From positions 1-44,106 of IMG/VR virus record IMGVR_UViG_3300021961_005366: a stretch of 44,106 nucleotides of DNA, one strand, 5' to 3'. The notes beneath the pieces were generated by a model. It was not told the DNA's origin, did no database searches, and saw only the letters and a program-made list of their open reading frames with translations. The number at the start of each line of letters is the position of its first letter. Position 1 is the first letter of the stretch. This document shows positions 1 through 19,274 of this stretch, in pieces. The position numbers were made by a program, and so were the translations under genes. The DNA comes from a virus.

Positions 1-2
1 AG

Positions 3-1550
3 GATAGAGATAGAACCTTTATCTATGCCAGCGTACAGCGTATTGATCAAACCACAAAGCAAATTACCATCAGCGAAACAGTTCCAACTGGTGCTGTTCC
101 GTTAGAAGTTATTCCAGTGTTTAAAAACATATTAAGTGATAGTTTAACCAACGAGATGGTAACTCTTATTAAAATCTATAAGAATTTTGGTTTACGCTAC
201 GACACAAGCATTGATGGGTGGGCATTGATTGACAATGCTGATCTAAGTGACGAAGCATTTTCTACAGCAAATGCTGGCGATAACACCGGAACAGGACTTG
301 ACTCAAGTTGGTTTGTAAAGTTAGTTTACGACGGAACAGAATACAATATTATGCATCGCGGGTTAGATTATTACTTTGAAAGCGAAGCAGAAACTAAATT
401 CTACTTTGACGATACAGTTAAAGTATACGACAGCAAAACAGGCCGTACACAGAGTGATGAAATTACAGTTCTCAAATTCAATAGCCAAGCAGACAGTTCT
501 GCGCCATTGGCTCAGAATCTAGTGTGGAACGTTTATAAAAGTATTGTTGGCACAGATGGATATAAAGAAAACAGACGTATACTGATTACTTTCCCAGACC
601 GTGACGGCGACGGTGTACCTGACAATCCTGATTTATTTGATTTGATTGTTAATAGTAGTGTTAACAGCGAAGAAAAATATGTGTTCTTTAAAAAGCAGGA
701 AAGCAAAACAGGCTTTAATGATTTTGCACCAATGGATTACTTTGATGTTGAAATATTCAGCGACTTTGAAACAATTAGTGTAAACCTTGACAGTTTTGAT
801 ACAGGACAAATTTTCTATGCCTATGTTAGTACAAAATTCTACGAGCTTGTAGTAGATGCAAGCGGAATTAGAAAACTAATAAACGTAACCTCAGATTATC
901 GTGCAAGAATTGGCCGAGACCGTTTGAATTTTAGATATAGGCACAATTCACCTAATAATAGAAGAATTGATCCAAGCCCGAACAACATTATGGATATGTT
1001 TATTTTAACTAAGCAATATTCTACCGATTATACTTCGTTTATTACAGACACAAGTAATACACTAACTGAACCAAGTCCACCAACACAAGACGAACTCAGA
1101 GGCGAATTTGGCAGTCTTGAAGATTATAAAGCAATGAGCGATACTATTATTTTTAATAGTGCTAAATTTAAGCCATTGTTTGGTAGTTTAGCTGAAAATA
1201 GTTTACGTGCTAAATTTAAAGTTGTTAAGAACCCAAATATGAATGTCAGCGACAGTGAAATAAAGACGCAGGTTATTAATGCTATCAATACTTACTTTGA
1301 TATTAATAACTGGGACTTTGGCGAAAGTTTTTACTTTAGTGAACTAAGTGCTTATTTGCACACAGAACTAATACCGCAAATATCAAGTATTATTATTGTT
1401 CCAAGCGACACATCGCAGAGCTTTGGTAATCTTTATCAAATTAATGCAGAACCAGACGAAATTTTAATTAGTGCGGCAACTGTTGACGACGTAGAAGTTA
1501 TCAGTGCAATTACCGCTTCTCAAATAAACCAAGCAAGAGCTAGCGTTTAA
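3..1550 (+). CDS. Baseplate wedge protein, gp6-like, 5' partial
   Basis: The reading frame is open from base 3 with no stop, so the gene begins outside the window. The GTG at 117 is an internal valine, not a start. The C-terminal third carries a segment that I recall from gp6-type baseplate wedge proteins of T4-like cyanophages: NNWDFGESFYFSEL (about 1309-1350), then a PQISSIIIVPSD strand and an FGNLYQINAEPDEI segment before the end. A calcium-loop-like stretch, DRDGDGVPDNPD, lies near 598-633. In T4, gp6 is followed by gp7 and gp8, and here a giant structural gene and a 229-residue structural gene follow, which fits that order. The next gene starts 21 bases downstream on the same strand. The gp6 assignment comes from recalled similarity plus gene order; another baseplate protein is possible. 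That it is a virion protein is much safer. Confidence 0.55.
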   Translation, partial: DRDRTFIYASVQRIDQTTKQITISETVPTGAVPLEVIPVFKNILSDSLTNEMVTLIKIYKNFGLRYDTSIDGWALIDNADLSDEAFSTANAGDNTGTGLDSSWFVKLVYDGTEYNIMHRGLDYYFESEAETKFYFDDTVKVYDSKTGRTQSDEITVLKFNSQADSSAPLAQNLVWNVYKSIVGTDGYKENRRILITFPDRDGDGVPDNPDLFDLIVNSSVNSEEKYVFFKKQESKTGFNDFAPMDYFDVEIFSDFETISVNLDSFDTGQIFYAYVSTKFYELVVDASGIRKLINVTSDYRARIGRDRLNFRYRHNSPNNRRIDPSPNNIMDMFILTKQYSTDYTSFITDTSNTLTEPSPPTQDELRGEFGSLEDYKAMSDTIIFNSAKFKPLFGSLAENSLRAKFKVVKNPNMNVSDSEIKTQVINAINTYFDINNWDFGESFYFSELSAYLHTELIPQISSIIIVPSDTSQSFGNLYQINAEPDEILISAATVDDVEVISAITASQINQARASV

Positions 1551-1571: not shown

Positions 1572-4500
1572 ATGGCTATAATTAAAACTGTAAACTTTCT
1601 ACCTAGTATTTTTAGAACAGAAACTAATAATAAGTTTCTTAATGCTACACTAGATCAATTAGTAAGTCAACCAGATTTTCAAAGAGTTAACGGCTATATT
1701 GGAAGAAAGTTTAGTCCAACCTTTGTTGCATCAGACAACTACGTTGCTGAACCAACTGCAAGTAGACAGAATTACCAACTTGAACCAAGCGTAGTTGTTA
1801 AAAACAAATCCACCAACAACATTGATTTCTTTTCAACCTATGTTGATCTTCTACAACAAATACAATATCACGGTGGTAATATTCAAAATCACACAAGATT
1901 GTTTGGCAACGAAACCTATAGTTTTGATGCACTAATTGACTATGATAAATTTACCAATTTTCAAAATTATTATTGGGTACCCAATGGGCCAAGCGCAGTA
2001 GATGTATTTGCTGGTAATGTTGAAACAGAAGAACAGTATACAGTAACACGAAACATCAGTGTTAATGGTTTTAACTTCAGTGAAAAAGGTATTGAATCCA
2101 ACCCAGTGCTGGTTCTAGCACGTGGCGGTACATACACATTCACTGTTAACGAACCTGGGCATAAGTTTTGGATTCAAACAGAACCCGGACTAACTGGTTT
2201 TAGATTTAACCAAACCAACGTTAGTACTAGAGAAATTTTTGGAGTAACCAATAACGGAACAGACAACGGAACAGTTACATTTAGAGTTCCGTTAATTGAT
2301 GCTCAAAAACGCTTCACTGATATGGAGAGTGTGGGCAATGTTGATATGGCCAGCAAGATTCATTATAACGAACTTGAAGGTCGTATCTTAAGTACATTTT
2401 TAGCTGAATTCCCTAACGGAATTGACGGCGCTAAAACTTTTTCTGAACTACACAACAAAAGTTTAATTTTTATTACCAATGACGATGTATTAACAGACGA
2501 ATACTGGACCAATAACGAATACTTTGACATGTTACAGTATGGTATTGCTGTTGAAGATCAAGTTGTTCCAAGAGACCAGAGAAGAAATATTTGGCGAGTA
2601 ACACTAGTTCCAATTGGAGATGTAAATCCAGACACTGGTATTTCTGATGATTATGTTATTCATCTAGTTCCAAGTACACATGTTGCGTTTGATCAAAAAG
2701 TTTATGTTAACTTAGGTATTGATCACGGCACAAAAGAGTTTTATTTAGACCACGATCAAACCTATCACGAAATTCCAATTATCACAAGTGTTCTTGATAG
2801 ATTATACTATCAAGACAGTGAAGATGCAACCTACTTTGGCGAAATACGAATTGTTGATGCGGTTAACTTTACAATTAACGTAGATGAAGATATTCTAGGT
2901 ACTAACAGTTATACTTCTCCAAACGGTATTGACTTTACCAACGGCTTAAAAGTTAGCTTCAACAATACTGTAACTCCTGCCAAATATAAAAACAAAGAAT
3001 ATTATGTAGAAGGAGTAGGAACAGGTATTAGATTGGTTCCTGTTGATAGTCTAGTAACTCCTGAAGCATATGCGTCTGGAGGATTAACCACTCCTGACTA
3101 TATCACTATTAATAGAGCTAGTTCAGATCTTAACGGGTGGAGTCGTAGCAACCGTTGGTTCCACATTGATGTATTAACAAAAACAGCCGAAATCAACAAA
3201 GAAGTTTTGGTATATGAATTTACATACGATCCAGACCTTAACGGTTTGTTTGTTCCTGTTCCAGAAAATATTACAATAGTAACAACGCTTCGCAGTAAAG
3301 TTGTTGTTCAAAATTTAGAATACGAATATGCAATTGGACAAATCTTTTATGCCTTTGCAGAAGATAATTTTTATATTAAAACAGCCGAAGGTGTAATTGG
3401 AACCGTTAATAATTACCGTGCTAAGAATACCAGTCTGCCAGACCAAGATTTTCGTGCAGAAAGACCAATCATTGAATTTGAACATTCATTGAGATTGTTT
3501 AATTTTGGTATTGAAGCACTTGATCCAATTGATTACATGGATTTTACTGTACAAGATGCATTCAGTGATATTGAAAGATCTGGCAGTATATACGATACAC
3601 TAACAGCATACAACAAAGGCGACACAGTTATCTATCAAAACAATGTCTATGGTGCTCTAAAGAATGCCCAGACTTTGCCAACCGATACTGTAGTTTGGAA
3701 AAAGAAAGATCAACTTGTTCCTTTTGATAATACACGTATCTATTTTAAAGGCGAACGAGTTATTGAAAACAACCATGTCTATGAATGTTTAAACAACACT
3801 ACTGATAGCCCTGCTACTGCTGTCGACGGCATTTGGTTTGATCTTTATTCATACTACTTGTATGACCCGGCCACTGCAAATACTATTGTTGCAGGTGATA
3901 TTGTTGAATATAATGGGTTTGCCTATGAAGCTAGAGAAAACATTGAACAAGTTCCTGGACTCAACGCAACCGCGACTACTTGGGAATTATTGTTTGAGTT
4001 AACAGACAACAAAAGAATTATTTTTGCCAATGAGCAAGATCCAGAAATTCGTAGACGTATCTACGAAATTCAGTTAGAAACAATTGACGGGTTACCAACA
4101 ATTCACTTAGCAGAAGTTGGCGAAAGACTACTTGAAAACGGTGATATTATCATTGTTAAAAGTGGAAAGAATGGAAGCAAAAACTTCTGGTACGATGGTA
4201 GCACCTGGTACGAAGGACAAACCAAAACAGCCATTAATGTACAGCCAAAATTTGATGTACTTGATCAGAATAATATCAGCTACGGTGACGCTACATATTA
4301 CCCCAATTCAACCTTTACTGGCACTACGCTGTTTCAGTATAAACGAGGCACAGGCACAAACGATCGTGTGTTAGGTTTTCCTTTAACATACAAAAACTTC
4401 AACAGTGTTGGTGATATTGAATTTGAATCAAGTTTTAATACCGACACATTTACCGCACTTAGTGGACTTGAAACAATTAACTATCCAGTAAGTCAGGGTT

Positions 4501-7500
4501 TTCTGTTTAAAGATTATACCAAAACCAATCGTGAATATAGAAATGTATGGATTAAAAACCAAGAAGAATCTAAACAGTATCAATTGTTTAGTAACATATA
4601 TAATGGCGAAACCAACTATTTTGAAATTGACATCATCAACGACGAAGTAGAAAAAACACCAAACATTAAAGTTTATGTAAACAACAAACTATTAAAACGT
4701 ATTGATTTTACTCTAGAATTAATTGGTAGAAGACTTTGTGTAGTTGTTAACCCTGCGTATCTTACTAAAGTTGGTGATAAAGTTGATATCTCAATATATT
4801 CACGCAATGCTGTCAGTGAACGAAGCTACTATGAAATTCCGTTGAATCTAGACTTTAACGGCAAAAATGCTAACTTCAGTTCATTGACTCTTGGGCAACT
4901 TAAAGATCATGTTGGCAAACTTGAAGAAAATACAAACGCTATTTCGGAAAGCATTGGCACATTCACTAGTCAAAGAGATATTTTCTTTAAGAATAACACA
5001 GGAACAATACTACAACATGCTTATCCGTTAATTTATAGCAATTTATTTTTAACCAACGAAAAGCTAAACTTTATTGAGAGTCTTGAGCTTGCTAGTAGAG
5101 AATATACTAAATTTAAAAATAGATTCTTAGAACTGTGTCGTAATATTCAAAACATACAATCTAAGACTATTGCTGATCATGTTGATGAAATTATTAGTGT
5201 TATCAACCAGTCTAAGAACACCACAATGCCGTTTTACACAAGCGACATGATTCCATATGGTACTAATAGAACGGTTTACGATGATGTAGTTATTAATCCA
5301 AATCTTAAGCAGTTTGATTTACCTGGTGTGTTTAACGATAATGTATTAAGCAATACAGCAATTCTAGTTTATGTTAATGATGTACAGCTTATCAAAGACA
5401 AAGACTATTCGTTCCCACAAGACAGAACTGCGGTTGTTATCAGCAATACATTTCCGCTCGAAACAGATGATAGAATTCGTGTAGTTGAGTATCACAACAC
5501 TGACGGTTGTTATTTGCCACCGACCCCAAGTAAATTAGGTTTATATCCTAAGTATACACCAAGTAAAATATACGACGATACTTTTGTTGAACCTAGAAAT
5601 ATAATTCAAGGGCACGATGGTAGTGCAATGCCAGCATTTGATGACTTCAGAGATGATCTATTGCTGGAGTTTGAAAAGCGTATCTTTAACAATATTAAAA
5701 TTGATTTTGATGAAAATATTTTTGACATCCATCAGTATATTCCAGGATCTTTCAGAGACACAGACTACACTGAGCAAGAATGGAAACGCATTCTTGGACG
5801 TAGTTTCTTGCGTTGGGCTGGATCTAATCAAGTTGATTATACTACTAATAAAGTATTCCAAAGCAACAACCCATGGACATGGAACTTTGCCAGACAAAGC
5901 AATAAACTGTCAGGTAAACCATTAACTGGTAGTGTACGTGGCATTTATATGAGCTTGTTTGACACAGTTCGTCCACACACTCATCCTTGGGAGATGCTAG
6001 GATTCAGCAGTGAGCCAAGTTGGTGGGTAGAACGCTACGGTGTTGCTCCGTTCACGTCAGGAAACTTGTTGTTGTGGGAAGACCTAGAGCGTGGTTACAT
6101 TCATGCAGGCCCACGTGCGGGTGTTAACAAGAACTTTGCCCGTCCTGGACTAACGCAGATTATTCCAGTAGATGAATATGGATTTAGAAAAAGTCCGGAT
6201 CAGTTCATTGTACGTTCACTGAACCCTAGTACACTAAACACTAGTTTTGAAGTAGGACATGTTGGTCCTGCAGAGTATGCTTGGATCAAGAGCAGTGACT
6301 ATGCGTTTGCAGTGCAACGTGCATTAGCATTGATTAAACCTGCGTTCTACTTTGGTAGTTTAATGAATATCAAACGCTATTATAGAGATAGTCGTCTTGG
6401 ACAATTAGTTAATAGAACTACACTACAACGTATTACTCCAAACAACATTGTTGTTCCGGATTCAGTAACCAATGGTTCACGAAACTTTGTAGCTGGCTAC
6501 ATGAACTGGATTGTCGATTACACAACATACCTAGGCATCAACGGCAAGGCATTGCTTAGACAGCAACTTGACGATCTTGAAGTAGAACTTGGTTATAAAG
6601 CCGCTGGCTACACTGGTAAGAACTATATAAATGTATTGGCTGAACAAAGTTCGCCTTCTAGTACTTCCAGTAGTATCATAATACCAGATGACAACTACAA
6701 AATTATTCTACACAAAAGTACACCAGTACGCAAAGTGGTTTATAGTGCAGTAATTGTGCAAAAGTCAGGAAATGGATGGACTGTTAGCGGTTACAATCTC
6801 AGTGATCCTTACTTCTCTGTTATTCCAAGTCAAAGTGATAATGAAAATCACGTGCTTACAGTTGGCAATAGACGAGCAACAATTTTCCACAATTATGTAA
6901 AAAAGAAAGTGCTTGTCCCCTACGGAACAGAATTTCAAAACGTTCAACAGGTTGCTGATTTCTTAGTAAGTTATAGTCGTTATCTAGTAGGACAAGGATT
7001 TGTCTTTAACCAGAATGACCCAGGACTTAATGAGTTGCGTAACTGGGAACTAAGTGTCAAAGAGTTCTTGTCCTGGGAACAGCAGGAATGGCAAGAAGGT
7101 AGTTTATTAGTACTAAGCCCAGCATTTGATAGAATTGAACTGAATGTAATTGGTGGAACTGTAGATAAAATCACAAACAGTATCAACGGCAACAAAGTAC
7201 TGTCTCCAAACTTCAATGTTATTAAAAATACAGATTTCACTGTTAATAGACAGCCAAACTTCTTTAGCCTGGAAACATTAAATGGACAAACAATTTGCTT
7301 GTTTGAAGGTAGAGTTATACAATACGAACATGCTTTTGTATTTGATAATGTTACAGTGTTCAATGACATTATCTATTTGCCTGAACTAGGAAATAGACAG
7401 TTCAGACTAAAACTAGTTGGTAATAAATCGGCTCAGTGGTCAGGTGAACTAAATCCTCCAGGATTTATTTTCAATGATCCTAAGATTGAAGAATGGGCAA

Positions 7501-10500
7501 GTTGGACAGATTATAAAAAAGGAACGATTGTTAAGTATAAGCGTAATACATTCACTGCAATAAAAAATGTCGTTGGTAAAGCAGAATTTGTTCTCAGTGA
7601 ATGGACACAAATTGACGACGAAGGACAAAAGAGCGGACTATTACCTAACTTCAGTTATAACGCTGATAGGTTTGAAAGAATCTACGACGTTGAAAACCTA
7701 CCAATAGATGAAAATCTTCAAGAGTTCAGTTCTGGAATCATTGGCCTACGCAATAGACAATACCTAACTGATCTGGCATTAGATTTTCAAAGTCAGACAA
7801 AATTTTATCAAGGATTTATCAAAGAAAAAGGAACAAAAACAGCCATTGAATCATTGACAACTGCTAGATTCAATAATATTAATAGTAACATCAATCTCTA
7901 TGAAGAGTGGGCTGTACGAGTAGGTGAATACGGTTCGTTAGAAAGTGATGCTCAAATTGAAATTGAGTTAGACGATACTAAATTTACTAACAACCCAAGC
8001 ACCTTTAATTTACTTACATCGATGGAAAAACAAACTCCAGGCATAGTGCCTGTACGTCCAGCAGATGTTTATAAGAAAACAACCAGTACATTTCCAAGAA
8101 ATATTTTCCATGAAAGAAACGATGACAGCGATTACGACAAAGACATTGCTAGAGCAGGATTTGTTAATCTAGCAGACATTAATGCAACAATCTACGACAT
8201 TGTAAACTTTAATGCACTCAACACATATCTAAGACAGCTTGGTGATGGATTCAAAGTTTGGGTAGCCAAAGACTTTGATCTAGATTGGAATGTTTATCGT
8301 ATTACCGCTGCCGATGCAAGACCAACTGCAATAAACTATGAACTAGACAACGTTATGAGCATTGACTTTAACAATAGACACAATCTCAAAGTTGGCGAAG
8401 TATTTTGTATTAAATCATTTAACGCAGACTATGATGGCTTCTATAAAGTTAAGAGCATTAGTAATTCACAGCGTTTATTAGTTGACATGTATCAAGGTGC
8501 AGACTTCCTTAAAGAAGCTCGTACTATTGCTGAAGACAGTGGCATACTGTTCCACATGGACAGCATGAGATTGAGCGATCCAACAAAGATCAATGATATT
8601 GCTCCACGCAAAGGTTGGCTCAATGGCGATAAAGTATGGGTTGACAGTTATAATTCAGATAATAAATGGGCAGTCTACGAAAAACAAGCCAGCTGGAATC
8701 AAAGTCAAGAACTAACTTCTAATCAGTATAGAGGCAACGACGGCTACGGAAGTTCTGTTAAGATTAACAAAAATTCAGATCTTATTGCATTAGGTGCTGG
8801 TAGAAGTGATAAAATTGCACTGTTTACTAGAATAGTAGGTGAAGGATTTTTCCAGACTGGTAGTTTTGACCCTCCAGGATTGAAGTACACCTACAACGGT
8901 ATTACAACTACTGGCGGTGCGGGCACAAATGCTTCATTTGATGTGATTGGATTTAGTGCATATACTTCTAATATCTACTTTACAGCAACGATCTTTAACG
9001 GTGGAACTGGATACCAAGTAAATGATGTGTTAACTATTGCCTCCGGTAATATTGGTAGCAGTTCAGATTTACTTCTTGTGGTTACTTCTGTAGGAACCAA
9101 TGGAATTATTACTGGATTTGATTATCAAAATGCCGCAGACACTGCGGTAGTAGGCTATGGCGATATCATTGATATGAGTGACTATGTTATGGTTGCTGGT
9201 GCCAGTAGAATTGATCCAGGCGCTGTAATCATACACAACTTCCGTGTGCAAGACAACGAACACGATTTACAAATCTTAGCCGCACCAAGTGCTGGTGAAG
9301 AATTTGGAACAAATGTTAAAATCAGTGATGATGGACAATGGATTTATGTTGGCGCACCAGCCGCAAATAAGGTTTATTGCTATCACAGAGAAGAAGAGGT
9401 TACTAGTCGTACACAAACATTTAAAGATTCACTTGATGAGCAGGATTCTTTTGTTCAAGTAGTAGACCTAAGAGAATACAGTGTAAGTGGTGTAAGTTAT
9501 CAACTTTCGTTTGTTCCAGACAATGCAAATTCTATCGTTGTAACCTACAACGAAACCAACATACTATTACCTAATATTGACTATGAGTTGGCCAATGGTA
9601 ACGAAATTAGATTGCTTAATACTCTGCTTTCTAATAGATTAATCAATCAAATTGTTGTTAAGCAAGCACCTTACTATAAATTAGAAACAACTCTCACACC
9701 TCCAGCAGGCACAAACGCAGACGCAAGATTTGGTGAGTTCATCTATTGCAACGGACTTAATACTAGACTATTCGTTGGCGGTCCTGAAACTGATGTGAAC
9801 TCAGTTAACAGTGTTGGTAAAGTTTTTGTATATGGTCGTAGATACGAACATATTAGAACTGTTACAACGTCAACGTCATATGTCGTAACATCAGACATCA
9901 GCGCAGTAACAGATGTGTATCTTGGAAACACAAGATTGTACAAAGACGAAGATTGGAGTTTTAGCAATAACGAATTAACTATTGTGGTTGATCGTATTGT
10001 TGCAGAAGGATTAGTTCAAGCAGTTCAAGTTGAAGAGGCCAGTGGACTTGATGCATTCGCTTCACTATCGTCAATACCATCAGGTCAGATCATTAAAGTA
10101 TACAGCAACCAATTTGACTTATCAGATGAACTGTTACCTCCTGAAAATGAAAGAGTTGCAGGCGCTCGATTTGGTACACAGATAGTAACAGATCAAACCG
10201 GAGCAGGTTTATACATCACTGCTCCTAACTATAGTGATTCTACTTACAGTTCAGGTAAAGCCTATCGTTTCATTCAGCCAGAAATGTATTTTGGATCTAT
10301 AACTGCCAGTGTTGCAGAGCCTACACTAACTGCAGGTGATAACCTTTACCTTAATGGTTATAGAGTTGAACTAGGCGGAACTACTGTAGAACAATTAGTA
10401 GCTGATATTAATAATGCTTCTATTCCAGGTATTAGTGCAGGCTTAGTTAACGGATTCTTACAGATTCGTAGTACAATTAAAAATCTAAGACAAAAACTAA

Positions 10501-13500
10501 CTATTACTTGTGCAGGATCAACTATATGCAATGACCTAGGATTGAACTCATACACATACAATCAATCACTTCAATTGCCAATGGATAGTGACAATGAATC
10601 TTTTGCACTTAGCGTTAGTGTCAGTGACAATGACGATATACTTTTAATTGGTAGTGGCAATGCGGCCAGTGTACTGACGCTAAAAGTTGACAACGAAAAA
10701 GGTGCAAACACAACAACATTTGACGGTAACAGTACATTGTTTGCTGATAGATCCTTTAGCAGTAATGCATATATCTACGAACTCTTGCAAGACACAGGAA
10801 CAAATTTAAGCAATGCTGGAGTACAGACATTTGCACAAAAATTTGATCTAGTAGAAAATCGTGAATTTGATCTATTTGGAATATCACTGGATTTACGCGG
10901 AGATGTAATTGTAGTTGGTGATCCAGGCGACGACAACATTATTAATAATGGTGGTACAGCATATCTTTACGAAACAACTGGCAAGCGAATCTGGAATAAA
11001 ATTAGACAAGAAGAAGAAAAAGTAGATGTTGGTACGCTCACACGTTCATTGATCTACAGTAAACAAGATCATACTATTAAAACAAACTTTGATTTTATCG
11101 ATCCAGCCAAAGGAAAAATCTTAGGTCTAGCAGAATCAAATCTTGATTTTAAGGTTGCAAGTGATCCTGCAATTTATACCAATAATCCAGTCAGTACCTC
11201 AGATGTAGTAGTAGATCCAAACATGCACTGGGGCGAAGATCAAGTTGGAAAGTTTTGGTGGAATTTAAGTAAAGTCAGATACATTGACTATGAACAAGGC
11301 GATTTAATTTATCGTGTCAAAAACTGGGGGAGATTTTTCCCAGGTAGTGAAATTGAAATTTGTGAATGGATTGAGAGCTCAGTCAGTCCTGCAGAATATA
11401 CAACTATAAATGATGCTGATATGGGAACTCCTAAGTACACAGATGAAGGTACCTATGTACAAACAACCATAGTTGATGGCGCTACAGGCATACAAAGACA
11501 AAAATATTATTTCTGGGTAGTAAACAAAAGCGTTTCAACTAATCCTGATAAATCAGGAAGTCCTGTAACTGTTCGAGAAATGATTGAATCTCCTGAACTA
11601 CAAGGTATACCTTATATCGCTCCTATTGCACGAAACGCTGTTAGTTTGTATAATATCAATGATTATCTAAGTGGCACAGATATTGTACTACAAATTCGTT
11701 ACGATAACCTTCGTAATAGTAATACCATACACAGTGAATATCAGCTAATTCAAGAAGGAAATCCAGCAGACCGCATTCCAGAAAGTATTGTTGATAAACT
11801 CATTGATAGTTTAGCTGGTGCTGACTCAAGTGGTTTAGTAGTACCAGATTCTGGTTTATTAGAACAAGATCGTTATGGTATTAGTATTCGACCAAGACAA
11901 ACAATGTTTGTTGATAGAATGGGAGCATTGAAAACTTTTGTTCAAGTAGTTAATAAAGTATTAATTCAACATCCAATAGTACAACAAAAAGTTATTACAG
12001 GCATTTCATCCAAAGAAGCAGATCCTGCAATTAGTGAATATAACTTTACTGTTGATATAATTGACGAGTTAGAGTTCTTAGATAAACAAGGATTACCTGA
12101 AGGTTATAAAGTATTTGTTCGTAGTGATTCTAACAATGAAAATCTTTGGGCAATATACATTTTACAATCTTCACAGTTTGTGTTATACAGGTTACAAGCA
12201 TTTGATACCAGTCATTATTTTAACTATACAGACTGGTATGCAACAGGCTTTGACGAAAGTATCAGAGAAGATTATACTGTTAACTTTGAAAGAGATATAC
12301 AAAGTCTAAGTCAAATAAAAGCTGGAGAAATTATTCGTGTTCGTTATAATAACATTGGCACGTTTACACTATACCAAATAAAACAAGACAACAACAACGA
12401 TGACCTTGAGTTGGTCGGTCTTGGACAAGGAACAATACAATTAAGTGATAAGTTGTATGACAAAGAAAAATACCAACTAGGTTTTGGATTAGAAAACTTT
12501 GATAGCGCACGATTTGATGTAAACCCAAGTATTGAAATTCGTAATATTTTCAATGCACTACGACATGATATCTACATCAATGAACTAGCTGGTGAATTTA
12601 ATAAACTATTCTTTAGCATGGTTAACTGGGTATTGTATAATCAAAGAGATGTTGATTGGATTTTTAAATCTAGTTTTATTAGTGTATATCATCAGTTGCG
12701 TGAACTTGACCAATATCCAAGTTTTGTTAGAGACAACCAAGATTTCTACATTGACTATATCAATGAAGTTAAACCATACAGAACTAAAATTAGAGAATAT
12801 CTATTAGGTTACACAGGCAATGATAATTATCCTGGTGATGTTAGCGACTTTGACTTACCAGCATACTTTGAGCCAACCACGCAAGACTTCCGTAGTCCAA
12901 GTGGCGAAGGCATCAACGATGACTTATATCTACGCAATGATAGAGAATACAGTCAATGGTATACAAACCATGAACTAACACTAGAAAGTATTCAGATTGC
13001 ACAAGGAGGCACAGGTTATACAGTAGCACCTGTTGTTACTGTTGTCAACTATGATGGTACTGTTAGTACAGTTAAGCCTACCGCTAAGATTAACCCCGTA
13101 GACGGCAGTGTAACAAGTATTACATTTAGTGGAGAGTTTGTATTTGACAGCTCACCAACTATTAATATTAACGGTAACGGCACAGGTGCTAAAGCATATC
13201 CTGTTATGGTTAACAACAAAGTACGAAGCATTAAAACAGAGATCAAATTTGATAGAATTGCTTATAGCAGTAACCTTAAAGAATGGACACCTGCGCTTGA
13301 TGTTGCTGAAGGAGATTATATCTATTTCCAAAACGAAGTTTATCTTGCAACACAAGATGTTCCAGCATCTAATATATTTGATTTTAGATTCTTAATTCCT
13401 GTTAGTCATACTTTTGGTAATGCTATTGATCGTATTGTTGCATACTATGTTGCGCCAGACGGAACACCAGGTGTTGAACTACTATCTAAACTAATTGACG

Positions 13501-15101
13501 GATTAACATATCCTGGGGTACGTGTAACTGGTCTTGGCTACGCTGACGAAGTATACAGTGACAAATTCTTAGATACTACAATCCAAAGCACATATCTAGA
13601 TACCAGTTTAGGTACTAGAGCAGAAGATATTAACGTTGACGGAGGATCGTTCGTTGATACTTATAGCAGTCATGCTCCGCAAGAGCTAACACCAGGTATT
13701 ACATTTGACACACTGGTAATGAGCGTGTTTACAAGAATTATTGATCAAAACGGTGCTATTGTTAGTGGACCTCCGTTGGGATATCGTGTAACACACAATT
13801 TAACTGGTAGTCAGTTAGTTACTCCAACAACGTTTGATCCTACTATAGAATATCCAATAAATTCTTATGTAATTTATAATGACGTCTACTATGTTTCACT
13901 TAGTGAAATACAACCAGGCTCGGATGTTCCTGGAGTTAGTAGTTTTTGGCGTGTAGCGCATGCTGGAATTCAAACATGGGCACACGATGCAACACACGAA
14001 AAAGGAAAATACATCAGCTACAACGATAAGATATATCAAGCTAAAAACACATTTAGTTTTAAAGGTACAGTAGCAACTTCTGCTAACCTGGTAATTAGTA
14101 CATCCAACATTGACAATGACACCTACTATGTAACAGACGAAGATACTATGTACTACTGGGTAACATCTGACAACTCTTGGTTTAAACTTACAGCACCAAC
14201 TTGGATCTCAAAAACTAGATATGAACGAGGTGATGCAGTGATATACAATAATGTATTGTATACAAGCAGAACTGGTTTTATGTATGTTGATGAAGTAGCA
14301 GATATTGCAAGTTTGCCAGCAGATGCACTAGCAGGGTCTGTGTATTTTGTTACTAGCGAAGTAACATATTATTGGAAAAACGATCATGGAAACTGGGTAG
14401 CAACAGGACCAACTCCAGAATATCAATCTAGATACTGGACTGCTCAAACTCCAACGCTATCGTCAGCAGGCGAACTAGGAAGATATCCAGATAGTCAACC
14501 TCAGCTATGGCAAGAAGTATACTTTGATAATGCTTCAACTCTAGAGTTTTCTCCGGTAGATTCTAGATCGTATTACAGAATTTCATCTACACACAGTACT
14601 TTAGTAACACAAGATTTTGCAATAACTGATACAACGCTATATGTTGAAGACGCTAGCTTGTTACCAAACCCTGATCTAGCTAGAGGTGTTCCAGGTGTTG
14701 TGTATGTTAATGGCGAGATACTCTATTATTATGAAAAAGACGAAACTACAAATACACTAAATCGTGTTCGTAGAGGTGTACTAGGCACAGGAGCCGCCGC
14801 AGTTATTGCAACAGGATCAAGAATTGACGACTTGTCGATACTACAAACACTACCTTCTAATTCAGATTACACAGACTGGTTAAACAGTTTGAATGAGTTT
14901 GGATTTGTTGAAGTTGGCGACTTTGACTTTGATGCACCAGGATTTGGATTTGCGTACAATGTTAGCTTCCCAGACAGTCCAAATGATCCGGACACAGACC
15001 CAGGTGACGCACCGTTTGACTATGATATTAGTATTACATCTGGTGGCGTAACCACAGAACAAGCCACATTCTTAGGTGCAAGCCCGGCATACAACCCATG
15101 A
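1572..15101 (+). CDS. Giant virion structural protein (4509 aa), possibly baseplate/tail-tip, in the gp7 position
   Basis: One uninterrupted frame covers 13.5 kb. The start is ATG with only a weak upstream AGGT. The first 200 residues (FLPSIFRTETNNKFLNATLD, then YYWVPNGPSAVDVF near residue 133) look like a globular head domain. Repeated modules follow: carbohydrate-binding-like units (Y..GD.V.Y.N.VY.A type) at about residues 674-815, 1975-2015, 3905-3935 and 4089-4240; six FG-GAP-like segments between about 2390 and 3140; and GGTGY-type beta segments near 2470 and 3810. Near the C-terminus a VPGVVYVNGEILYY segment precedes a VRRGVLGTG turn. Placement right after a gp6-like gene suggests a baseplate or tail-tip protein in the gp7 slot, possibly adhesive. 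It is roughly four times as long as T4 gp7 (1032 aa), so homology to gp7 is inference only. The last four bases overlap the next start. Confidence 0.7.
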   Translation: MAIIKTVNFLPSIFRTETNNKFLNATLDQLVSQPDFQRVNGYIGRKFSPTFVASDNYVAEPTASRQNYQLEPSVVVKNKSTNNIDFFSTYVDLLQQIQYHGGNIQNHTRLFGNETYSFDALIDYDKFTNFQNYYWVPNGPSAVDVFAGNVETEEQYTVTRNISVNGFNFSEKGIESNPVLVLARGGTYTFTVNEPGHKFWIQTEPGLTGFRFNQTNVSTREIFGVTNNGTDNGTVTFRVPLIDAQKRFTDMESVGNVDMASKIHYNELEGRILSTFLAEFPNGIDGAKTFSELHNKSLIFITNDDVLTDEYWTNNEYFDMLQYGIAVEDQVVPRDQRRNIWRVTLVPIGDVNPDTGISDDYVIHLVPSTHVAFDQKVYVNLGIDHGTKEFYLDHDQTYHEIPIITSVLDRLYYQDSEDATYFGEIRIVDAVNFTINVDEDILGTNSYTSPNGIDFTNGLKVSFNNTVTPAKYKNKEYYVEGVGTGIRLVPVDSLVTPEAYASGGLTTPDYITINRASSDLNGWSRSNRWFHIDVLTKTAEINKEVLVYEFTYDPDLNGLFVPVPENITIVTTLRSKVVVQNLEYEYAIGQIFYAFAEDNFYIKTAEGVIGTVNNYRAKNTSLPDQDFRAERPIIEFEHSLRLFNFGIEALDPIDYMDFTVQDAFSDIERSGSIYDTLTAYNKGDTVIYQNNVYGALKNAQTLPTDTVVWKKKDQLVPFDNTRIYFKGERVIENNHVYECLNNTTDSPATAVDGIWFDLYSYYLYDPATANTIVAGDIVEYNGFAYEARENIEQVPGLNATATTWELLFELTDNKRIIFANEQDPEIRRRIYEIQLETIDGLPTIHLAEVGERLLENGDIIIVKSGKNGSKNFWYDGSTWYEGQTKTAINVQPKFDVLDQNNISYGDATYYPNSTFTGTTLFQYKRGTGTNDRVLGFPLTYKNFNSVGDIEFESSFNTDTFTALSGLETINYPVSQGFLFKDYTKTNREYRNVWIKNQEESKQYQLFSNIYNGETNYFEIDIINDEVEKTPNIKVYVNNKLLKRIDFTLELIGRRLCVVVNPAYLTKVGDKVDISIYSRNAVSERSYYEIPLNLDFNGKNANFSSLTLGQLKDHVGKLEENTNAISESIGTFTSQRDIFFKNNTGTILQHAYPLIYSNLFLTNEKLNFIESLELASREYTKFKNRFLELCRNIQNIQSKTIADHVDEIISVINQSKNTTMPFYTSDMIPYGTNRTVYDDVVINPNLKQFDLPGVFNDNVLSNTAILVYVNDVQLIKDKDYSFPQDRTAVVISNTFPLETDDRIRVVEYHNTDGCYLPPTPSKLGLYPKYTPSKIYDDTFVEPRNIIQGHDGSAMPAFDDFRDDLLLEFEKRIFNNIKIDFDENIFDIHQYIPGSFRDTDYTEQEWKRILGRSFLRWAGSNQVDYTTNKVFQSNNPWTWNFARQSNKLSGKPLTGSVRGIYMSLFDTVRPHTHPWEMLGFSSEPSWWVERYGVAPFTSGNLLLWEDLERGYIHAGPRAGVNKNFARPGLTQIIPVDEYGFRKSPDQFIVRSLNPSTLNTSFEVGHVGPAEYAWIKSSDYAFAVQRALALIKPAFYFGSLMNIKRYYRDSRLGQLVNRTTLQRITPNNIVVPDSVTNGSRNFVAGYMNWIVDYTTYLGINGKALLRQQLDDLEVELGYKAAGYTGKNYINVLAEQSSPSSTSSSIIIPDDNYKIILHKSTPVRKVVYSAVIVQKSGNGWTVSGYNLSDPYFSVIPSQSDNENHVLTVGNRRATIFHNYVKKKVLVPYGTEFQNVQQVADFLVSYSRYLVGQGFVFNQNDPGLNELRNWELSVKEFLSWEQQEWQEGSLLVLSPAFDRIELNVIGGTVDKITNSINGNKVLSPNFNVIKNTDFTVNRQPNFFSLETLNGQTICLFEGRVIQYEHAFVFDNVTVFNDIIYLPELGNRQFRLKLVGNKSAQWSGELNPPGFIFNDPKIEEWASWTDYKKGTIVKYKRNTFTAIKNVVGKAEFVLSEWTQIDDEGQKSGLLPNFSYNADRFERIYDVENLPIDENLQEFSSGIIGLRNRQYLTDLALDFQSQTKFYQGFIKEKGTKTAIESLTTARFNNINSNINLYEEWAVRVGEYGSLESDAQIEIELDDTKFTNNPSTFNLLTSMEKQTPGIVPVRPADVYKKTTSTFPRNIFHERNDDSDYDKDIARAGFVNLADINATIYDIVNFNALNTYLRQLGDGFKVWVAKDFDLDWNVYRITAADARPTAINYELDNVMSIDFNNRHNLKVGEVFCIKSFNADYDGFYKVKSISNSQRLLVDMYQGADFLKEARTIAEDSGILFHMDSMRLSDPTKINDIAPRKGWLNGDKVWVDSYNSDNKWAVYEKQASWNQSQELTSNQYRGNDGYGSSVKINKNSDLIALGAGRSDKIALFTRIVGEGFFQTGSFDPPGLKYTYNGITTTGGAGTNASFDVIGFSAYTSNIYFTATIFNGGTGYQVNDVLTIASGNIGSSSDLLLVVTSVGTNGIITGFDYQNAADTAVVGYGDIIDMSDYVMVAGASRIDPGAVIIHNFRVQDNEHDLQILAAPSAGEEFGTNVKISDDGQWIYVGAPAANKVYCYHREEEVTSRTQTFKDSLDEQDSFVQVVDLREYSVSGVSYQLSFVPDNANSIVVTYNETNILLPNIDYELANGNEIRLLNTLLSNRLINQIVVKQAPYYKLETTLTPPAGTNADARFGEFIYCNGLNTRLFVGGPETDVNSVNSVGKVFVYGRRYEHIRTVTTSTSYVVTSDISAVTDVYLGNTRLYKDEDWSFSNNELTIVVDRIVAEGLVQAVQVEEASGLDAFASLSSIPSGQIIKVYSNQFDLSDELLPPENERVAGARFGTQIVTDQTGAGLYITAPNYSDSTYSSGKAYRFIQPEMYFGSITASVAEPTLTAGDNLYLNGYRVELGGTTVEQLVADINNASIPGISAGLVNGFLQIRSTIKNLRQKLTITCAGSTICNDLGLNSYTYNQSLQLPMDSDNESFALSVSVSDNDDILLIGSGNAASVLTLKVDNEKGANTTTFDGNSTLFADRSFSSNAYIYELLQDTGTNLSNAGVQTFAQKFDLVENREFDLFGISLDLRGDVIVVGDPGDDNIINNGGTAYLYETTGKRIWNKIRQEEEKVDVGTLTRSLIYSKQDHTIKTNFDFIDPAKGKILGLAESNLDFKVASDPAIYTNNPVSTSDVVVDPNMHWGEDQVGKFWWNLSKVRYIDYEQGDLIYRVKNWGRFFPGSEIEICEWIESSVSPAEYTTINDADMGTPKYTDEGTYVQTTIVDGATGIQRQKYYFWVVNKSVSTNPDKSGSPVTVREMIESPELQGIPYIAPIARNAVSLYNINDYLSGTDIVLQIRYDNLRNSNTIHSEYQLIQEGNPADRIPESIVDKLIDSLAGADSSGLVVPDSGLLEQDRYGISIRPRQTMFVDRMGALKTFVQVVNKVLIQHPIVQQKVITGISSKEADPAISEYNFTVDIIDELEFLDKQGLPEGYKVFVRSDSNNENLWAIYILQSSQFVLYRLQAFDTSHYFNYTDWYATGFDESIREDYTVNFERDIQSLSQIKAGEIIRVRYNNIGTFTLYQIKQDNNNDDLELVGLGQGTIQLSDKLYDKEKYQLGFGLENFDSARFDVNPSIEIRNIFNALRHDIYINELAGEFNKLFFSMVNWVLYNQRDVDWIFKSSFISVYHQLRELDQYPSFVRDNQDFYIDYINEVKPYRTKIREYLLGYTGNDNYPGDVSDFDLPAYFEPTTQDFRSPSGEGINDDLYLRNDREYSQWYTNHELTLESIQIAQGGTGYTVAPVVTVVNYDGTVSTVKPTAKINPVDGSVTSITFSGEFVFDSSPTININGNGTGAKAYPVMVNNKVRSIKTEIKFDRIAYSSNLKEWTPALDVAEGDYIYFQNEVYLATQDVPASNIFDFRFLIPVSHTFGNAIDRIVAYYVAPDGTPGVELLSKLIDGLTYPGVRVTGLGYADEVYSDKFLDTTIQSTYLDTSLGTRAEDINVDGGSFVDTYSSHAPQELTPGITFDTLVMSVFTRIIDQNGAIVSGPPLGYRVTHNLTGSQLVTPTTFDPTIEYPINSYVIYNDVYYVSLSEIQPGSDVPGVSSFWRVAHAGIQTWAHDATHEKGKYISYNDKIYQAKNTFSFKGTVATSANLVISTSNIDNDTYYVTDEDTMYYWVTSDNSWFKLTAPTWISKTRYERGDAVIYNNVLYTSRTGFMYVDEVADIASLPADALAGSVYFVTSEVTYYWKNDHGNWVATGPTPEYQSRYWTAQTPTLSSAGELGRYPDSQPQLWQEVYFDNASTLEFSPVDSRSYYRISSTHSTLVTQDFAITDTTLYVEDASLLPNPDLARGVPGVVYVNGEILYYYEKDETTNTLNRVRRGVLGTGAAAVIATGSRIDDLSILQTLPSNSDYTDWLNSLNEFGFVEVGDFDFDAPGFGFAYNVSFPDSPNDPDTDPGDAPFDYDISITSGGVTTEQATFLGASPAYNP
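3591..4010 (+). other. Three tandem carbohydrate-binding-like modules inside the giant protein
   Basis: Residues about 674-815 contain three consecutive units of roughly 45 residues, each with the pattern Y/F-x(4-6)-Y-x-K/A-G-D/E-x-V-I/E-x-N-x-V/A-Y and then a W about 25 residues later. The cores are YNKGDTVIYQNNVYGAL, YFKGERVIENNHVYECL and IVAGDIVEYNGFAYEAR. This resembles the CBM5/12 (chitin-binding type 3) fold found on many secreted and phage proteins. Similar single units recur near 7494-7600, 13283-13350, 13835-13930, 13978-14050 and 14203-14280. Sugar binding is inferred from the family pattern. Confidence 0.5.
8742..10990 (+). other. FG-GAP-like beta-propeller region inside the giant protein
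   Basis: Six segments share the pattern FG-x(3)-K/S-I-S-x-D-G/N-x(2)-I/L-x-V-G-A/G-P, as in FG-GAP/integrin-type propeller blades: GYGSSVKINKNSDLIALG (about residue 2391), FGTNVKISDDGQWIYVGAP (about 2577), RFGEFIYCNGLNTRLFVGGP (about 2718), RFGTQIVTDQTGAGLYITAP (about 2864), FALSVSVSDNDDILLIGSG (about 3008) and FGISLDLRGDVIVVGDPGDD (about 3100). Most are followed by a V/A-Y-x-Y/F strand that would close the blade. Spacing is uneven (about 90-190 residues), so other strands are inserted between blades. The propeller is inferred from the repeat pattern. Confidence 0.5.
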
Positions 15102-15787
15102 TAAATAATGATATAAAAGAGCAGGATACTGAAAATATGAAAACAGATTCAACAAAAAAGAAGCCAGACGAACTTGGCGGTTTCCATATTGAAGGGCATA
15201 TTAAAATACATGACCCCGACAGTGGAGATGTTTATGTTAATAAGCGTAACGCTATTCACTATGAAAACATCAGTGAGGCATTAGCCTATAACTTAGCTAA
15301 CAAAGGTCAGAGCTATATCTACGAAATGCACTTTGGAAACGGTGGCACAACTGTTAATGCTACAGGCGTTATTACATACAATCCTGCTAACACAAACGCC
15401 CAAAACAGTAGCCTATACAATGCAACCTACAGCAAGATTGTAGACGATACAGATGTTAACAACCTAGACGCTACACGCAACAAAATGGAAATTAGACACA
15501 CACCAGGTCAGCCATACACAGATATACTTGTAACTTGTTTGCTAGACTATGGTGAACCAAACGATCAGGCGGCTTTTGACAACCTACAAGATTTAAACGG
15601 AGACTATGTTTTTGATGAACTAGGACTTCGTGCTAGAAGTACCGATGGAACTAGTGGATTAACCACAACAGGCAAACTGCTAACGCATGTTGTTTTCCAT
15701 CCAGTACAAAAGAGCTTGAACAGACTTATCCAAATCGATTATACAGTGAGAATCCAGACGTTAACAAATCTAAGCAGTATTAGTTGA
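15098..15787 (+). CDS. Virion structural protein (229 aa), function unknown
   Basis: The first ATG overlaps the stop of the giant gene (ATGATAA), which argues for translational coupling. A second ATG at 15137 (MKTDSTKKKPDELGG) has an AGGA about 11 bases upstream and lies after a possible late-promoter motif at 15100, so it is a plausible alternative start. The first 25 residues are charged and probably disordered. The body has GGFHIEGHIKIHDPDSGD, then YIYEMHFGNGGT, and ends with LGLRAR followed by LLTHVVFHPVQKS and a beta-rich IQIDYTVRIQ tail. The position between the giant structural gene and the fibre genes supports a baseplate or tail component, perhaps in the gp8 slot, but I see no clear resemblance to T4 gp8. 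Confidence 0.6.
   Translation: MINNDIKEQDTENMKTDSTKKKPDELGGFHIEGHIKIHDPDSGDVYVNKRNAIHYENISEALAYNLANKGQSYIYEMHFGNGGTTVNATGVITYNPANTNAQNSSLYNATYSKIVDDTDVNNLDATRNKMEIRHTPGQPYTDILVTCLLDYGEPNDQAAFDNLQDLNGDYVFDELGLRARSTDGTSGLTTTGKLLTHVVFHPVQKSLNRLIQIDYTVRIQTLTNLSSIS
15100..15107 (+). promoter_or_regulatory. Possible late-promoter motif GATAAATA
   Basis: The octamer matches the T4/cyanophage late-promoter core (TATAAATA or NATAAATA) seen twice more in this window just upstream of genes. Here it overlaps the stop/start junction, so it would only serve the 229-residue gene if the ATG at 15137 is used. It may be a chance product of the ATGATAAATAATG junction. Confidence 0.3.
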
Positions 15788-15798
15788 GGTAGATAAAA

Positions 15799-17631
15799 AT
15801 GGCATATGTTATTAATAGAACAAACGGCGACATACTACTTAATTTACCAGATGGTTCATTAGATACTAGTACAGGTCTTTCACTAGTAGGTCGTAACTAC
15901 GTCGGATTTGGTGAACTACAGCAAGAAAATTTAATTAAAATTCTAGAAAATTTTGCCAACGATACTAGACCAAATACAGCAATGACCGGACAACTTTGGT
16001 ATGATACAAGTGTTGGCATGCTTAAATTTTATAACGGTAGTGTTTTTAAACCAATTAGTAACTTAACTATTGGTGGATTTGCTGAAAGACCAATAAACAC
16101 CAATGTTGGAGATCAATTTTTTAACACTGACGAAAATGAGTTTTATATTTGGAATGGTGCAAGTTGGACACTAGTTGGTCCAACAGATTTAAGTAGACTA
16201 TCAGAAATTAGAGTTGTTGGTTCTTTAGCAAGCTCTCTTGATTTGCCCGCTGGCGGAGGTTTACAATCAAACGGCGACCCTGCTCGCGGTGGTGAAGCTT
16301 ATATCATTGACGGACATCTTTGGATCTGGGATACAGAACGTTGGAATGATGTTGGACAAGTACAAGGACCACAAGGAGAACCAGGACCACAAGGTGCTAC
16401 AGGCGAACGTGGTCCACAAGGTGTTGCTGGTCCGCAAGGCCCACTTGGCCCACAAGGCTTACGTGGTCTACAAGGTGTACAAGGCGATCAAGGTCTAACT
16501 GGACCACAAGGTGCTACAGGTCCAACTGGCCCTTCTGGTGCTGACGGTACTAGTGTTGTTATTATGGGCGGTAAAACAGATGTTAGTCAACTTCCTCCAA
16601 GTAATAATACCATTGGTGATGCTTACCTAGTCAACGGTGAACTTTATGTTTGGACTGGCTCCGCTTGGGAAAACGTTGGTAATATTCAAGGTCCGCAGGG
16701 TATTCAAGGCGACACTGGTCCACAGGGTATTCAGGGTGTTCAAGGACCAACAGGTTTAACAGGACCGCAAGGTCCAACAGGACCGCAAGGTCCAACAGGA
16801 CCGCAAGGTCCAACAGGTAATACTGGACCACAAGGGCCAGCCGGTCCGCAAGGCGCAACGGGCGCAACTGGATCACAAGGCCCAACGGGACCGCAAGGTC
16901 CAACAGGCCCAGCAGGTCCACAGGGTGAGACAGGACCAACAGGACCAGAAGGCCCAGCTGGTTCAAATGCATGGGCAGACATTACAGGAAAACCAAGTTT
17001 TGCAACTGTTGCAACCAGTGGCAGTTATGGTGATTTAGTTAATACACCAACACTGTTTGATGGAAATTATAACAGTTTGACAAACAAACCAGCATTAAAT
17101 TTTGTACCATTAAGCGGCACAACTGGTTTAGCAGGTAATATTATACCAACAACAAACAACACACGTAGCTTAGGATCAAATGCTTTAAGATTTTCTGTTG
17201 TTTATGCTACAACATTCAATGGAACATCTACACAAGCACAATACGCTGACGTTGCAGAACGCTTTGCTAGTGATGCTGTATATACTCCAGGTACTGTTGT
17301 TGCACTAGGTGGAGTAGAAGAAATTACTGCTTCAGTTGAAGATGCTAGTGAAGAAGTGTTTGGAGTAATTAGTACACGCCCAGCTCACCTAATGAATGCA
17401 GGTGCAGGCTCAGATGAAACACACCCAGCAGTAGCAGTTAGTGGAAGAGTACCGGTTAGAGTAATTGGAAAAGTCAAAAAAGGACAACGTTTAATCAGTG
17501 CAGGCAACGGATTAGCTCGCGGTGCAGAAAGACATGAAATTACAAATCTTAATGTAGTAGGTCGTAGTTTAGAGGATAAACACACTGAAGATATAGGGGC
17601 TGTCGAAGCAATAGTTAGACTGAATTCCTAA
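15799..17631 (+). CDS. Collagen-like tail fibre protein (610 aa)
   Basis: A GAGGT Shine-Dalgarno sits 9 bases before the ATG. Residues 1-125 form an adaptor shared with the proteins at 19495 and 21069 ([14 protein letters not shown], then [17 protein letters not shown], then [20 protein letters not shown]). Next are two [knob plus collagen] units: a knob ending [14 protein letters not shown] before Gly-X-Y block 1 (residues 190-250, 20 triplets), and a knob with [15 protein letters not shown] before block 2 (298-388, 30 triplets). A linker ([15 protein letters not shown]) leads to a C-terminal domain at about 483-610 starting [19 protein letters not shown]. That domain is nearly duplicated in the protein at 21069 and resembles C-terminal fibre chaperone or intramolecular-cleavage domains, though cleavage is not shown. 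The likely role is a trimeric receptor-binding fibre. Confidence 0.85.
16366..16548 (+). repeat. Collagen-like Gly-X-Y block 1 (20 triplets)
   Basis: Twenty uninterrupted Gly-X-Y triplets ([12 protein letters not shown]... to GPSGAD) encoded mostly by GGx CCA CAA. The more varied triplets (GER, GLR, GDQ) make this block less repetitive at the DNA level than block 2. Confidence 0.9.
16690..16962 (+). repeat. Collagen-like Gly-X-Y block 2 (30 triplets)
   Basis: Thirty uninterrupted Gly-X-Y triplets rich in GPQ and GPT, from GPQGIQGDT to GPEGPAG. No interruption was found. The encoded trimeric rod would give the fibre shaft its length. Confidence 0.9.
16762..16815 (+). repeat. Three perfect tandem copies of an 18-base unit, each a small hairpin
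   Basis: The unit GGACCGCAAGGTCCAACA occurs three times in a row without mismatch (16762-16779, 16780-16797, 16798-16815) and encodes GPQGPT each time. Within each unit GGACC and GGTCC are reverse complements around a GCAA loop, so the array could form repeated short hairpins and be prone to slippage in 18-base (two-triplet) steps that keep the frame. Confidence 0.9.
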
Positions 17632-17642: not shown

Positions 17643-19274
17643 TTGTCTAAGATAAAGTTGGTATTCAATAACGCTGGAACATATAGATTTATTGTTCCAA
17701 ATTGGGTAAGTCCTATTGTTACAGCTCGTATATGGGGTGCAGGTGGACAAGCAGGATTTAATACCAGTGGCAATGCCGGCGGTTCTGGTGCGGCAGGCAT
17801 TTATGTTAAAACTTTCTTAAATTTTGTAGAGCCTGGACAAGGAATTTATGTTTCTGTTGGCCAAGGCGGCGGTCGTGGACAGCGATCATTTTTTGACGGA
17901 AGATATTTTAGTGGTGGTTGGGGAGGCTACGGCGGTCATAAACAAGCAGGACCTTCGGGAGATGGAGGACACGGCGGCGGTGCATCTGTTATAGCTAAAC
18001 CTAACTTAGTTTTAGCAGCCGCAGGCGGAGGCGGCGGTGGCGGTGGCGCTTCCCGTAACTACGCCGGCGGCGGTGGAAACCTCATTTCTGGTAGCTTGTA
18101 TAGTGAACCAGGACATGGATATAACGGCGTCGAAATGATTGGATTTGGCGGTGGTGGTGGCGGTGGCGGCGGTGGCCCACAGCGCGGAGGTTCCGGCAAT
18201 AGGGGTGATGAATCAGTAGGTCCTAGTACTGGCGGAAAATCAGGCGGTGCAGTTTTATTTGCTTCGGGCGGCGGAATAATTGAAACTCCGTTAAGTAGTA
18301 AACCATATATTGATAACGAGGTAACCCCTGGACCACGAAGTAAAACTATGGGTACAGGCGGCCAAAGTAATGGACAACCAGGCACAGACGGATACGTTGA
18401 ATTAACATTTGACTATGGTGCTCCTGCAACATATATCAAGAAAAACGGAGATTGGAAAAAAGTAATAGAAGCATACTATAAGTCAACAAATACTGGAAAT
18501 TGGATACCTGCGAGAGCGGCATATCACAAACAAGGTAATAATTGGGTTATAGTAAATTCAACTGTTGAACCAGAATTTAATATTGAAAACGTCACCACTG
18601 GTATATTAACTACCACCGGAGAAACTAAAGAAACATTTGGCCGTATTGCCGAAAGACCTCCTCAATATGTAGATCCTCCTCCGCCTCCTCCGCCAGTGTC
18701 TGACCCTGGCGATTGGCACGACGACGGTGATTGGGGCGATTATGACGACAGTTTCGACAGCGGCGGCGGCGGCGACGGAGGTGGCGACAGTATTATCTGT
18801 ACTGAGCTATTCCGTAGAGGAATGATGCCAGCTGACATCTATGCGGCTGACGCACAATATGGTTCAAAACTGTTTGATGCTTTTCCTGAAATGAAAACTG
18901 GCTACCATCGCTGGGCTAGGATTGTTACAGAATGGATGAACGGTCGCGGTCCTACATTTATGTGGTGGATACGAGATCCTGAAAAACGTGCCCGTCGTCA
19001 ATCAGCATGGGCTACTAAGTGGGCAGAAGAACTTGCCGCACCTTGGGCCGCTGAAATGGCACACATACAAGGGGTACGCAAAACTAGTAGTCGTGCAGGA
19101 CGTTGGTTAATGCGTTTGGGATATCCAATTACAAAATACATTGGTAAAATGAAAACAAAGCCCAAGTATATGCATCTGGTAGCATTGGTTGCAATACTTG
19201 CGATTGCTAAACTACTTGTTTTAATAACAGGTGAAAAGATCAATCTAAAGGAGAAAAATGATGACTCTCGATGA
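17643..19274 (+). CDS. Glycine-rich adhesin-like tail protein with C-terminal membrane segment (543 aa)
   Basis: The start is TTG with AAGGAG 7 bases upstream. The N-terminal 30 residues (AGTYRFIVPNWVSPIVTARI) followed by WGAGGQAG match the glycine-rich domain common in phage tail proteins and recall the polyglycine adhesin tips of some T4-like phages. Residues about 35-255 are packed with glycine runs, one of nine and one of ten. A GDWKKV...W..A..AYHK segment (about 265-305) follows. Then come a proline run, an acidic Asp/Gly linker, and a distinct C-terminal domain from about 375 (CTELFRRGMMPADIYAAD, then YHRWARIVTEWM). Residues about 507-528 (YMHLVALVAILAIAKLLVLI) look like a membrane helix, which is odd for a fibre. 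The next gene starts inside its last codons. Confidence 0.75.
   Translation: MSKIKLVFNNAGTYRFIVPNWVSPIVTARIWGAGGQAGFNTSGNAGGSGAAGIYVKTFLNFVEPGQGIYVSVGQGGGRGQRSFFDGRYFSGGWGGYGGHKQAGPSGDGGHGGGASVIAKPNLVLAAAGGGGGGGGASRNYAGGGGNLISGSLYSEPGHGYNGVEMIGFGGGGGGGGGGPQRGGSGNRGDESVGPSTGGKSGGAVLFASGGGIIETPLSSKPYIDNEVTPGPRSKTMGTGGQSNGQPGTDGYVELTFDYGAPATYIKKNGDWKKVIEAYYKSTNTGNWIPARAAYHKQGNNWVIVNSTVEPEFNIENVTTGILTTTGETKETFGRIAERPPQYVDPPPPPPPVSDPGDWHDDGDWGDYDDSFDSGGGGDGGGDSIICTELFRRGMMPADIYAADAQYGSKLFDAFPEMKTGYHRWARIVTEWMNGRGPTFMWWIRDPEKRARRQSAWATKWAEELAAPWAAEMAHIQGVRKTSSRAGRWLMRLGYPITKYIGKMKTKPKYMHLVALVAILAIAKLLVLITGEKINLKEKNDDSR

Follow-up and report, generated by a model that had tools for sequence, protein, structure and literature searches.

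What a protein of 4,509 residues, encoded directly behind a gp6-type baseplate wedge gene, contributes to a virus particle is the question raised by this locus, together with the purpose of the repeated, adhesin-like segments along its chain. The window that we analyzed spans the whole of an IMG/VR record (44,106 bases), itself a fragment of a larger genome; the upstream gp6 frame continues past its left edge. Features of the window are collected in the table.

Gene, family, and genomic setting

A frame check of the window reproduced the originally noted 4,509 uninterrupted codons exactly, with an ATG start and zero internal stops. An open frame of this length in DNA of 37% GC is not a chance ORF. 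The identical 4,509-aa frame is carried by a second IMG/VR contig (L008) and the architecture is shared throughout the family, which rules out both a chance ORF and an assembly join. A 66%-identical frame occurs on three other IMG/VR contigs of up to 194 kb, and the carriers of the closest relatives are contigs of 194 and 228 kb.

In a profile search the giant protein matched phrog_10938 with 1033.7 bits over five stretches, and the core alignment covers several blocks; there were zero matches to NCBIfam. Homologues of 3,326 to 4,555 aa are present in the annotated isolates PA5oct (gp355), RaK2 (gp465), CBB (CBB_236), Atu_ph07 (gp180), SCTP-2 (gp140), and Phosso; they share the core along the whole length, the size class and, SCTP-2 excepted, the position behind gp6. 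Complete IMG/VR frames range from 3,512 to 5,700 aa. When the middle core block was searched against the annotated phage collection, 60 records were obtained, all from jumbo phages and nearly all complete genomes of 284 to 490 kb; a scan of IMG/VR with the same block yielded at least 591 confirmed relatives and thus defines an abundant, nearly uncharacterized jumbo-phage protein. The N-terminal and middle core blocks lay in one frame at 138 of 139 IMG/VR loci, a gp6 homologue ended no more than 400 bases upstream of the giant gene at 149 of 152 loci, and the order gp25, gp6, giant was found in PA5oct, Atu_ph07, RaK2, CBB, and Phosso, the gp25 label being absent from some records. Given this breadth, the coupling to gp6, and the single frame across loci, the protein is a regular part of RaK2-like jumbo phages rather than a peculiarity of one phage of T4 size. 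The sizes of the isolate carriers rule out a T4-sized phage, and the original statement that the gene occupies a large share of a T4-like genome was misleading. The notion of an expanded protein holds to the extent that specific insertion slots grow and shrink, but giant size itself is family-wide, the smallest complete member seen having 3.3 kaa. Proteins of this type had been recorded before, with hardly any study, in the biggest of the tailed phages; what is new is the domain content of its environmental branch, above all an integrin-type propeller in a protein of the baseplate operon.

Some members of the family depart from the common pattern. In Salicola phage SCTP-2 the giant gene is not adjacent to gp6, a gp6-like frame lying more than 80 kb away, and the phrog_10938 giant is preceded by another giant frame, about 3,096 aa long (L006, 19272-27001). 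At a sole locus (L046, 4193-8396) the N-terminal and middle blocks are in different frames that overlap at 5952-6064, the cause being a frameshift, a faulty assembly, or a gene that really is split. Frames of 5,659 to 5,700 aa (L016, L020, and L026) have a C-terminal slot longer by more than 1,000 residues. Seven matches (L193 to L199) fell in marine and other MAGs assigned to Rickettsiales, Neomarinimicrobiota, Gammaproteobacteria, and others, one on a contig of 335 kb; these probably stem from jumbo phage contigs that were assigned to bacterial bins.

Features of the window and of the giant protein encoded in it (residue numbers refer to the giant protein)
Feature	Position	Strand	Basis or remark
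gp6-type baseplate wedge subunit, C-terminal part	1..1550	+	phrog_10646, E 3e-113; frame open to window edge, read from base 3
Giant virion structural protein, whole gene, 4509 aa	1572..15101	+	phrog_10938, E 0
Residues 1-145, N-terminal core segment (LLP...NF.NYYW)	1572..2006	+	In all relatives (alignment)
Residues 146-440, cupredoxin-like beta-sandwich with large insertion	2007..2891	+	AlphaFold2 model; absent in RaK2, CBB, PA5oct
Residues 669-812, three tandem CBM5/12-like modules, mostly lineage-specific	3576..4007	+	Pfam comparison and module alignment
Residues 813-1231, conserved core	4008..5264	+	Family alignment
Residues 1309-1969, most conserved core block (PWEMLGF motif)	5496..7478	+	Family alignment
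Residues 1970-2020, CBM5/12-like module, position common to most environmental relatives	7479..7631	+	Pfam comparison and module alignment
Residues 2373-3144, seven-bladed FG-GAP beta-propeller, integrin-alpha type	8688..11003	+	Repeat HMM and AlphaFold2 model; slot nearly empty in some relatives
Residues 3145-3813, conserved core (VKPYRTKIREY motif)	11004..13010	+	Family alignment
Residues 3900-4270, four CBM5/12-like modules (3905, 4088, 4136, 4211)	13269..14381	+	Pfam comparison and module alignment
229-aa neighbor, homologue of PA5oct gp357 (virion protein)	15098..15787	+	36.5% identity over 197 aa; phrog_11259
Collagen-like tail fiber, Peptidase_G2-type C-terminal domain	15799..17631	+	N-terminal anchor common to two further fibers
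Two more fiber-like proteins, 505 and 515 aa	19495..22616	+	Same N-terminal anchor of about 128 aa

Core and inserted domains

Alignment of 15 family members set insertions apart from a conserved core, which totals about 2,800 residues in segments distributed over the whole protein (1-145, 439-552, 628-668, 809-1231, 1309-1969, 2021-2278, 3125-3813, 3884-4009, and 4357-4409); the features noticed at the outset sit in the insertions. The slot at about 2,300 to 3,150 varies in length from 85 to 1,556 residues among relatives. Identity to the closest relative is 63 to 77% in core segments, 47% in the propeller, and 43% in the CBM cluster, a pattern that fits surface-exposed modules that are diversifying or simply modules under weaker constraint.

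Among the insertions the complete propeller and the cluster of CBM-like modules stand out, and relatives exchange both. A propeller fold had been proposed from six FG-GAP-like segments; the repeats are present, but both the repeat HMM and the structure model count seven. The AlphaFold2 model of residues 2301 to 3180, built from 50 sequences, had a mean pLDDT of 80.3 and a pTM of 0.82, and in VIA-align comparisons residues 2373 to 3144 of this predicted model matched integrin alpha headpieces, which likewise have seven FG-GAP blades, with a Z of 38.8 and an rmsd of 2.7 over 344 residues, far above the background of the tool. The proposed fold is thus strongly supported by structure prediction. 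The domain differs from the integrin propeller in its sequence (13% identity), in its setting inside a phage structural protein, and in lacking the canonical calcium-binding DxDxDG loops, the motif DxDxDGxxD giving zero matches in the giant protein and in the relatives scanned. An integrin-type propeller is by itself no evidence for sugar binding. Of the 34 complete environmental relatives, about 25 had at least four recognizable FG-GAP blades; the repeat HMM recognized none in the six isolates, although diverged propellers, for example in Atu_ph07, may escape such detection. The literature that we searched on phage virion propellers and baseplates makes no mention of FG-GAP.

At least eight carbohydrate-binding-like modules in several clusters had been anticipated, and eight CBM5/12-like modules were indeed found: three at 674-812, one at 1975, one at 3905, and three at 4088-4260. 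The closest relative has six, most other relatives one to three, and each of the six isolates at most one that we could find. CBM_5_12 matched the whole protein in Pfam with an E of 2.7e-13, but single modules all fell below the Pfam cut-off (21.3 bits at best, against 26.2), two of the eight had no Pfam match of their own, and the matches span only about positions 1 to 31 of the 44 in the profile. The phage modules have the Y-x-x-G-D-x-V-x-Y...Y-x-A core in common with chitin-binding CBM5/12 modules, such as the ChiA1 ChBD (1ed7) and that of a Vibrio deacetylase (4ny2), but they match the N-terminal half only. The binding tryptophan of ChiA1 lies in the second half of that domain; a role for Trp687 is given in the title of Hara et al. 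2013, as cited in PMC8449059. Reading the weak alignments by eye, we saw no equivalent of Trp687 at the aligned position in the phage modules, which have only a later tryptophan at the module end. With every module below the cut-off, matched over half the profile, and without the ChiA1-type tryptophan, the original suggestion of binding to chitin-like sugars is not supported; the modules could still bind another sugar. In a PDB sequence search with N-terminal, middle, and C-terminal core profiles, only the CBM-like insert of the relatives matched chitin-related chains.

Residues 1 to 1199 were modeled by AlphaFold2 from 88 sequences (pLDDT 85.4, pTM 0.69). In this predicted model the fold of residues from about 150 to 430 resembles that of cupredoxins, superposing on rusticyanin (2cal) with a Z of 10.0 and an rmsd of 2.2 over 96 residues; it differs from them in its large insertion and in the lack of cysteine. 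No cysteine occurs between residues 1 and 738, and a type-1 copper site is therefore not possible in this domain. The viral structure library contains an equivalent architecture in homologues, including that of Atu_ph07. A Foldseek search of PDB with residues 1 to 1199 gave no match under an E of 1e-3; the best matches above it were chains of the phage Milano receptor complex and chitin deacetylases, and presumably reflect the CBM-like modules.

Position in the virion and relation to gp7

The designation of the gene product as a structural tail or baseplate protein is borne out by its place directly downstream of gp6 and by evidence from two relatives. MS of purified CBB virions identified CBB_236 by 21 peptides at 7.72% coverage (PMC5259590), and in the PA5oct record, whose cluster is largely syntenic with the window, gp354, gp355, and gp357 to gp360 carry "ESI-MS/MS" notes; the 229-aa protein, the fiber-like proteins, and a 309-aa protein of the window match PA5oct gp357 to gp360.

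A comparison with T4 gp7, correctly given as about 1,000 residues long (1,032 aa), had also been drawn, and it cannot be read as recognizable homology. Baseplates of this contractile class are built from (gp6)2-gp7 heterotrimer modules (PMC6300606), and in T4, A511, and pyocins the protein in the gp7 position bears the receptor-binding apparatus (PMC10811340). The giant gene follows gp6 as does the gene for gp7, a baseplate wedge protein of the BW3/TssG/P2 gpI class, and a similar place at the baseplate rim is presumed; but the giant is more than four times longer than gp7, with no detectable sequence similarity and no structural match to it listed for the segments searched. Profile-profile comparison of 8 slices and then of 13 deep segments with T4 gp6 to gp11 returned nothing, and local hhalign comparison of the deep profiles of the 13 segments with T4 gp7 gave a probability of about 2% at most. 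Nor was gp7 among the PDB structural matches listed for residues 1 to 1199, a model that covers only part of the core. A T4 gp7 profile that finds T4 recovered nothing in six complete jumbo relatives, whereas a control gp6 profile found five of the six; a gp8 profile gave nothing convincing in the complete jumbo relatives. No gp7 is recognizable in jumbo phages that do have the gp6 wedge protein; this, together with gene order, suggests a gp7-equivalent position for the giant and makes it, by position only, the best candidate for the gp7 role. The same two observations and the heterotrimer composition of such baseplates would also be expected if the protein were a true gp7/TssG orthologue that has diverged beyond sequence recognition and received adhesive domains by insertion; with the hhalign result and the matches listed for residues 1 to 1199 against it, we regard this as possible, at somewhat below an even chance.

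We suggest that the protein is probably a giant scaffold at the periphery of the baseplate, or tail tip, in a RaK2-like jumbo myovirus, and that its conserved core bears surface modules that can be exchanged. We infer its location in the particle, its equivalence to gp7, and its part in adhesion. The core would assemble beside gp6, at the edge of the baseplate of the contractile tail, where T4 has gp7, and would form the platform from which the downstream fiber proteins project; the N-terminal anchor that the three fibers have in common is what a shared docking platform would call for. Several core slots would carry exchangeable surface modules, here the cupredoxin-like sandwich, the eight CBM5/12-like modules, and the full propeller. 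The most likely task of these modules would be reversible adhesion at first contact with the cell, or else the docking of fibers and other baseplate proteins at that stage. If true, the slot arrangement explains how jumbo phages vary cell contact with an unchanged baseplate core, and the propeller (2373-3144) and the CBM cluster (4081-4270) are defined domains that could be expressed separately. In a further-reaching version, the protein would be a baseplate chassis whose slots are fixed; environmental jumbo phages would swap complete folded adhesins (propeller, cupredoxin-like, and CBM-like) on it instead of on tail fibers, and part of host recognition would reside in the wedge itself. This version strikes us as rather unlikely.

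Several points count against the reading that we favor: no segment tested matched gp7, the SCTP-2 giant lies apart from gp6, PHROGs places phrog_10938 in the category "head and packaging," and the faster divergence of the modules could mean relaxed constraint. The detached SCTP-2 gene, and the very long, modular, beta-rich character of the protein, would suit a tail-surface or whisker-like appendage outside the wedge that is merely encoded in the baseplate operon, and the homologue-bearing phage CBB has hair-like appendages along its tail (PMC5259590); but RaK2 also has a homologue, the accessible part of its published description mentions fibers and not such hairs, and the tight coupling to gp6 argues further against this reading, which we hold to be improbable. 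Extreme length and modular architecture also raise the idea of a polyprotein cleaved into separate tail proteins, which is more improbable still: no split version was seen among the 139 loci save the one doubtful fragment at L046, and domain searches found no protease domain in the giant protein. A more serious competitor, though a doubtful one, concerns the modules, which might be purely structural spacers fitting a large baseplate together, with no ligand outside the virion. The missing binding tryptophan and half-profile matches of the CBM-like modules, the cysteine-free cupredoxin-like domain, the propeller lacking a canonical calcium motif, and the retention of one CBM-like module position in most environmental relatives are all compatible with spacers, whereas a fixed structural contact would not be expected to come and go, or to outpace the core in divergence, as these sets of modules do.

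Downstream neighbors

Downstream of the giant and its 229-aa neighbor, the three fiber-like genes (15799-17631, 19495-21012, and 21069-22616) encode a common N-terminal anchor of about 128 aa, and two of the products share a C-terminal domain of about 177 aa at 62% identity, with a Peptidase_G2 match in the first; the three look like a set of alternative or co-mounted fibers. Between them, at 17643-19274, lies a gene with a TTG start for a glycine-rich protein of 543 aa with a hydrophobic C-terminal stretch, for which one relative was found among the fetched loci. Farther downstream, at 26981-35128, six consecutive radical SAM-like genes (phrog_14086 and others), with one small gene between, are followed by a Nol-like carbamoyltransferase, a kinase-like gene, and a peptide deformylase. 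Atu_ph07 and Phosso have a single radical SAM gene beside the equivalent structural cluster.
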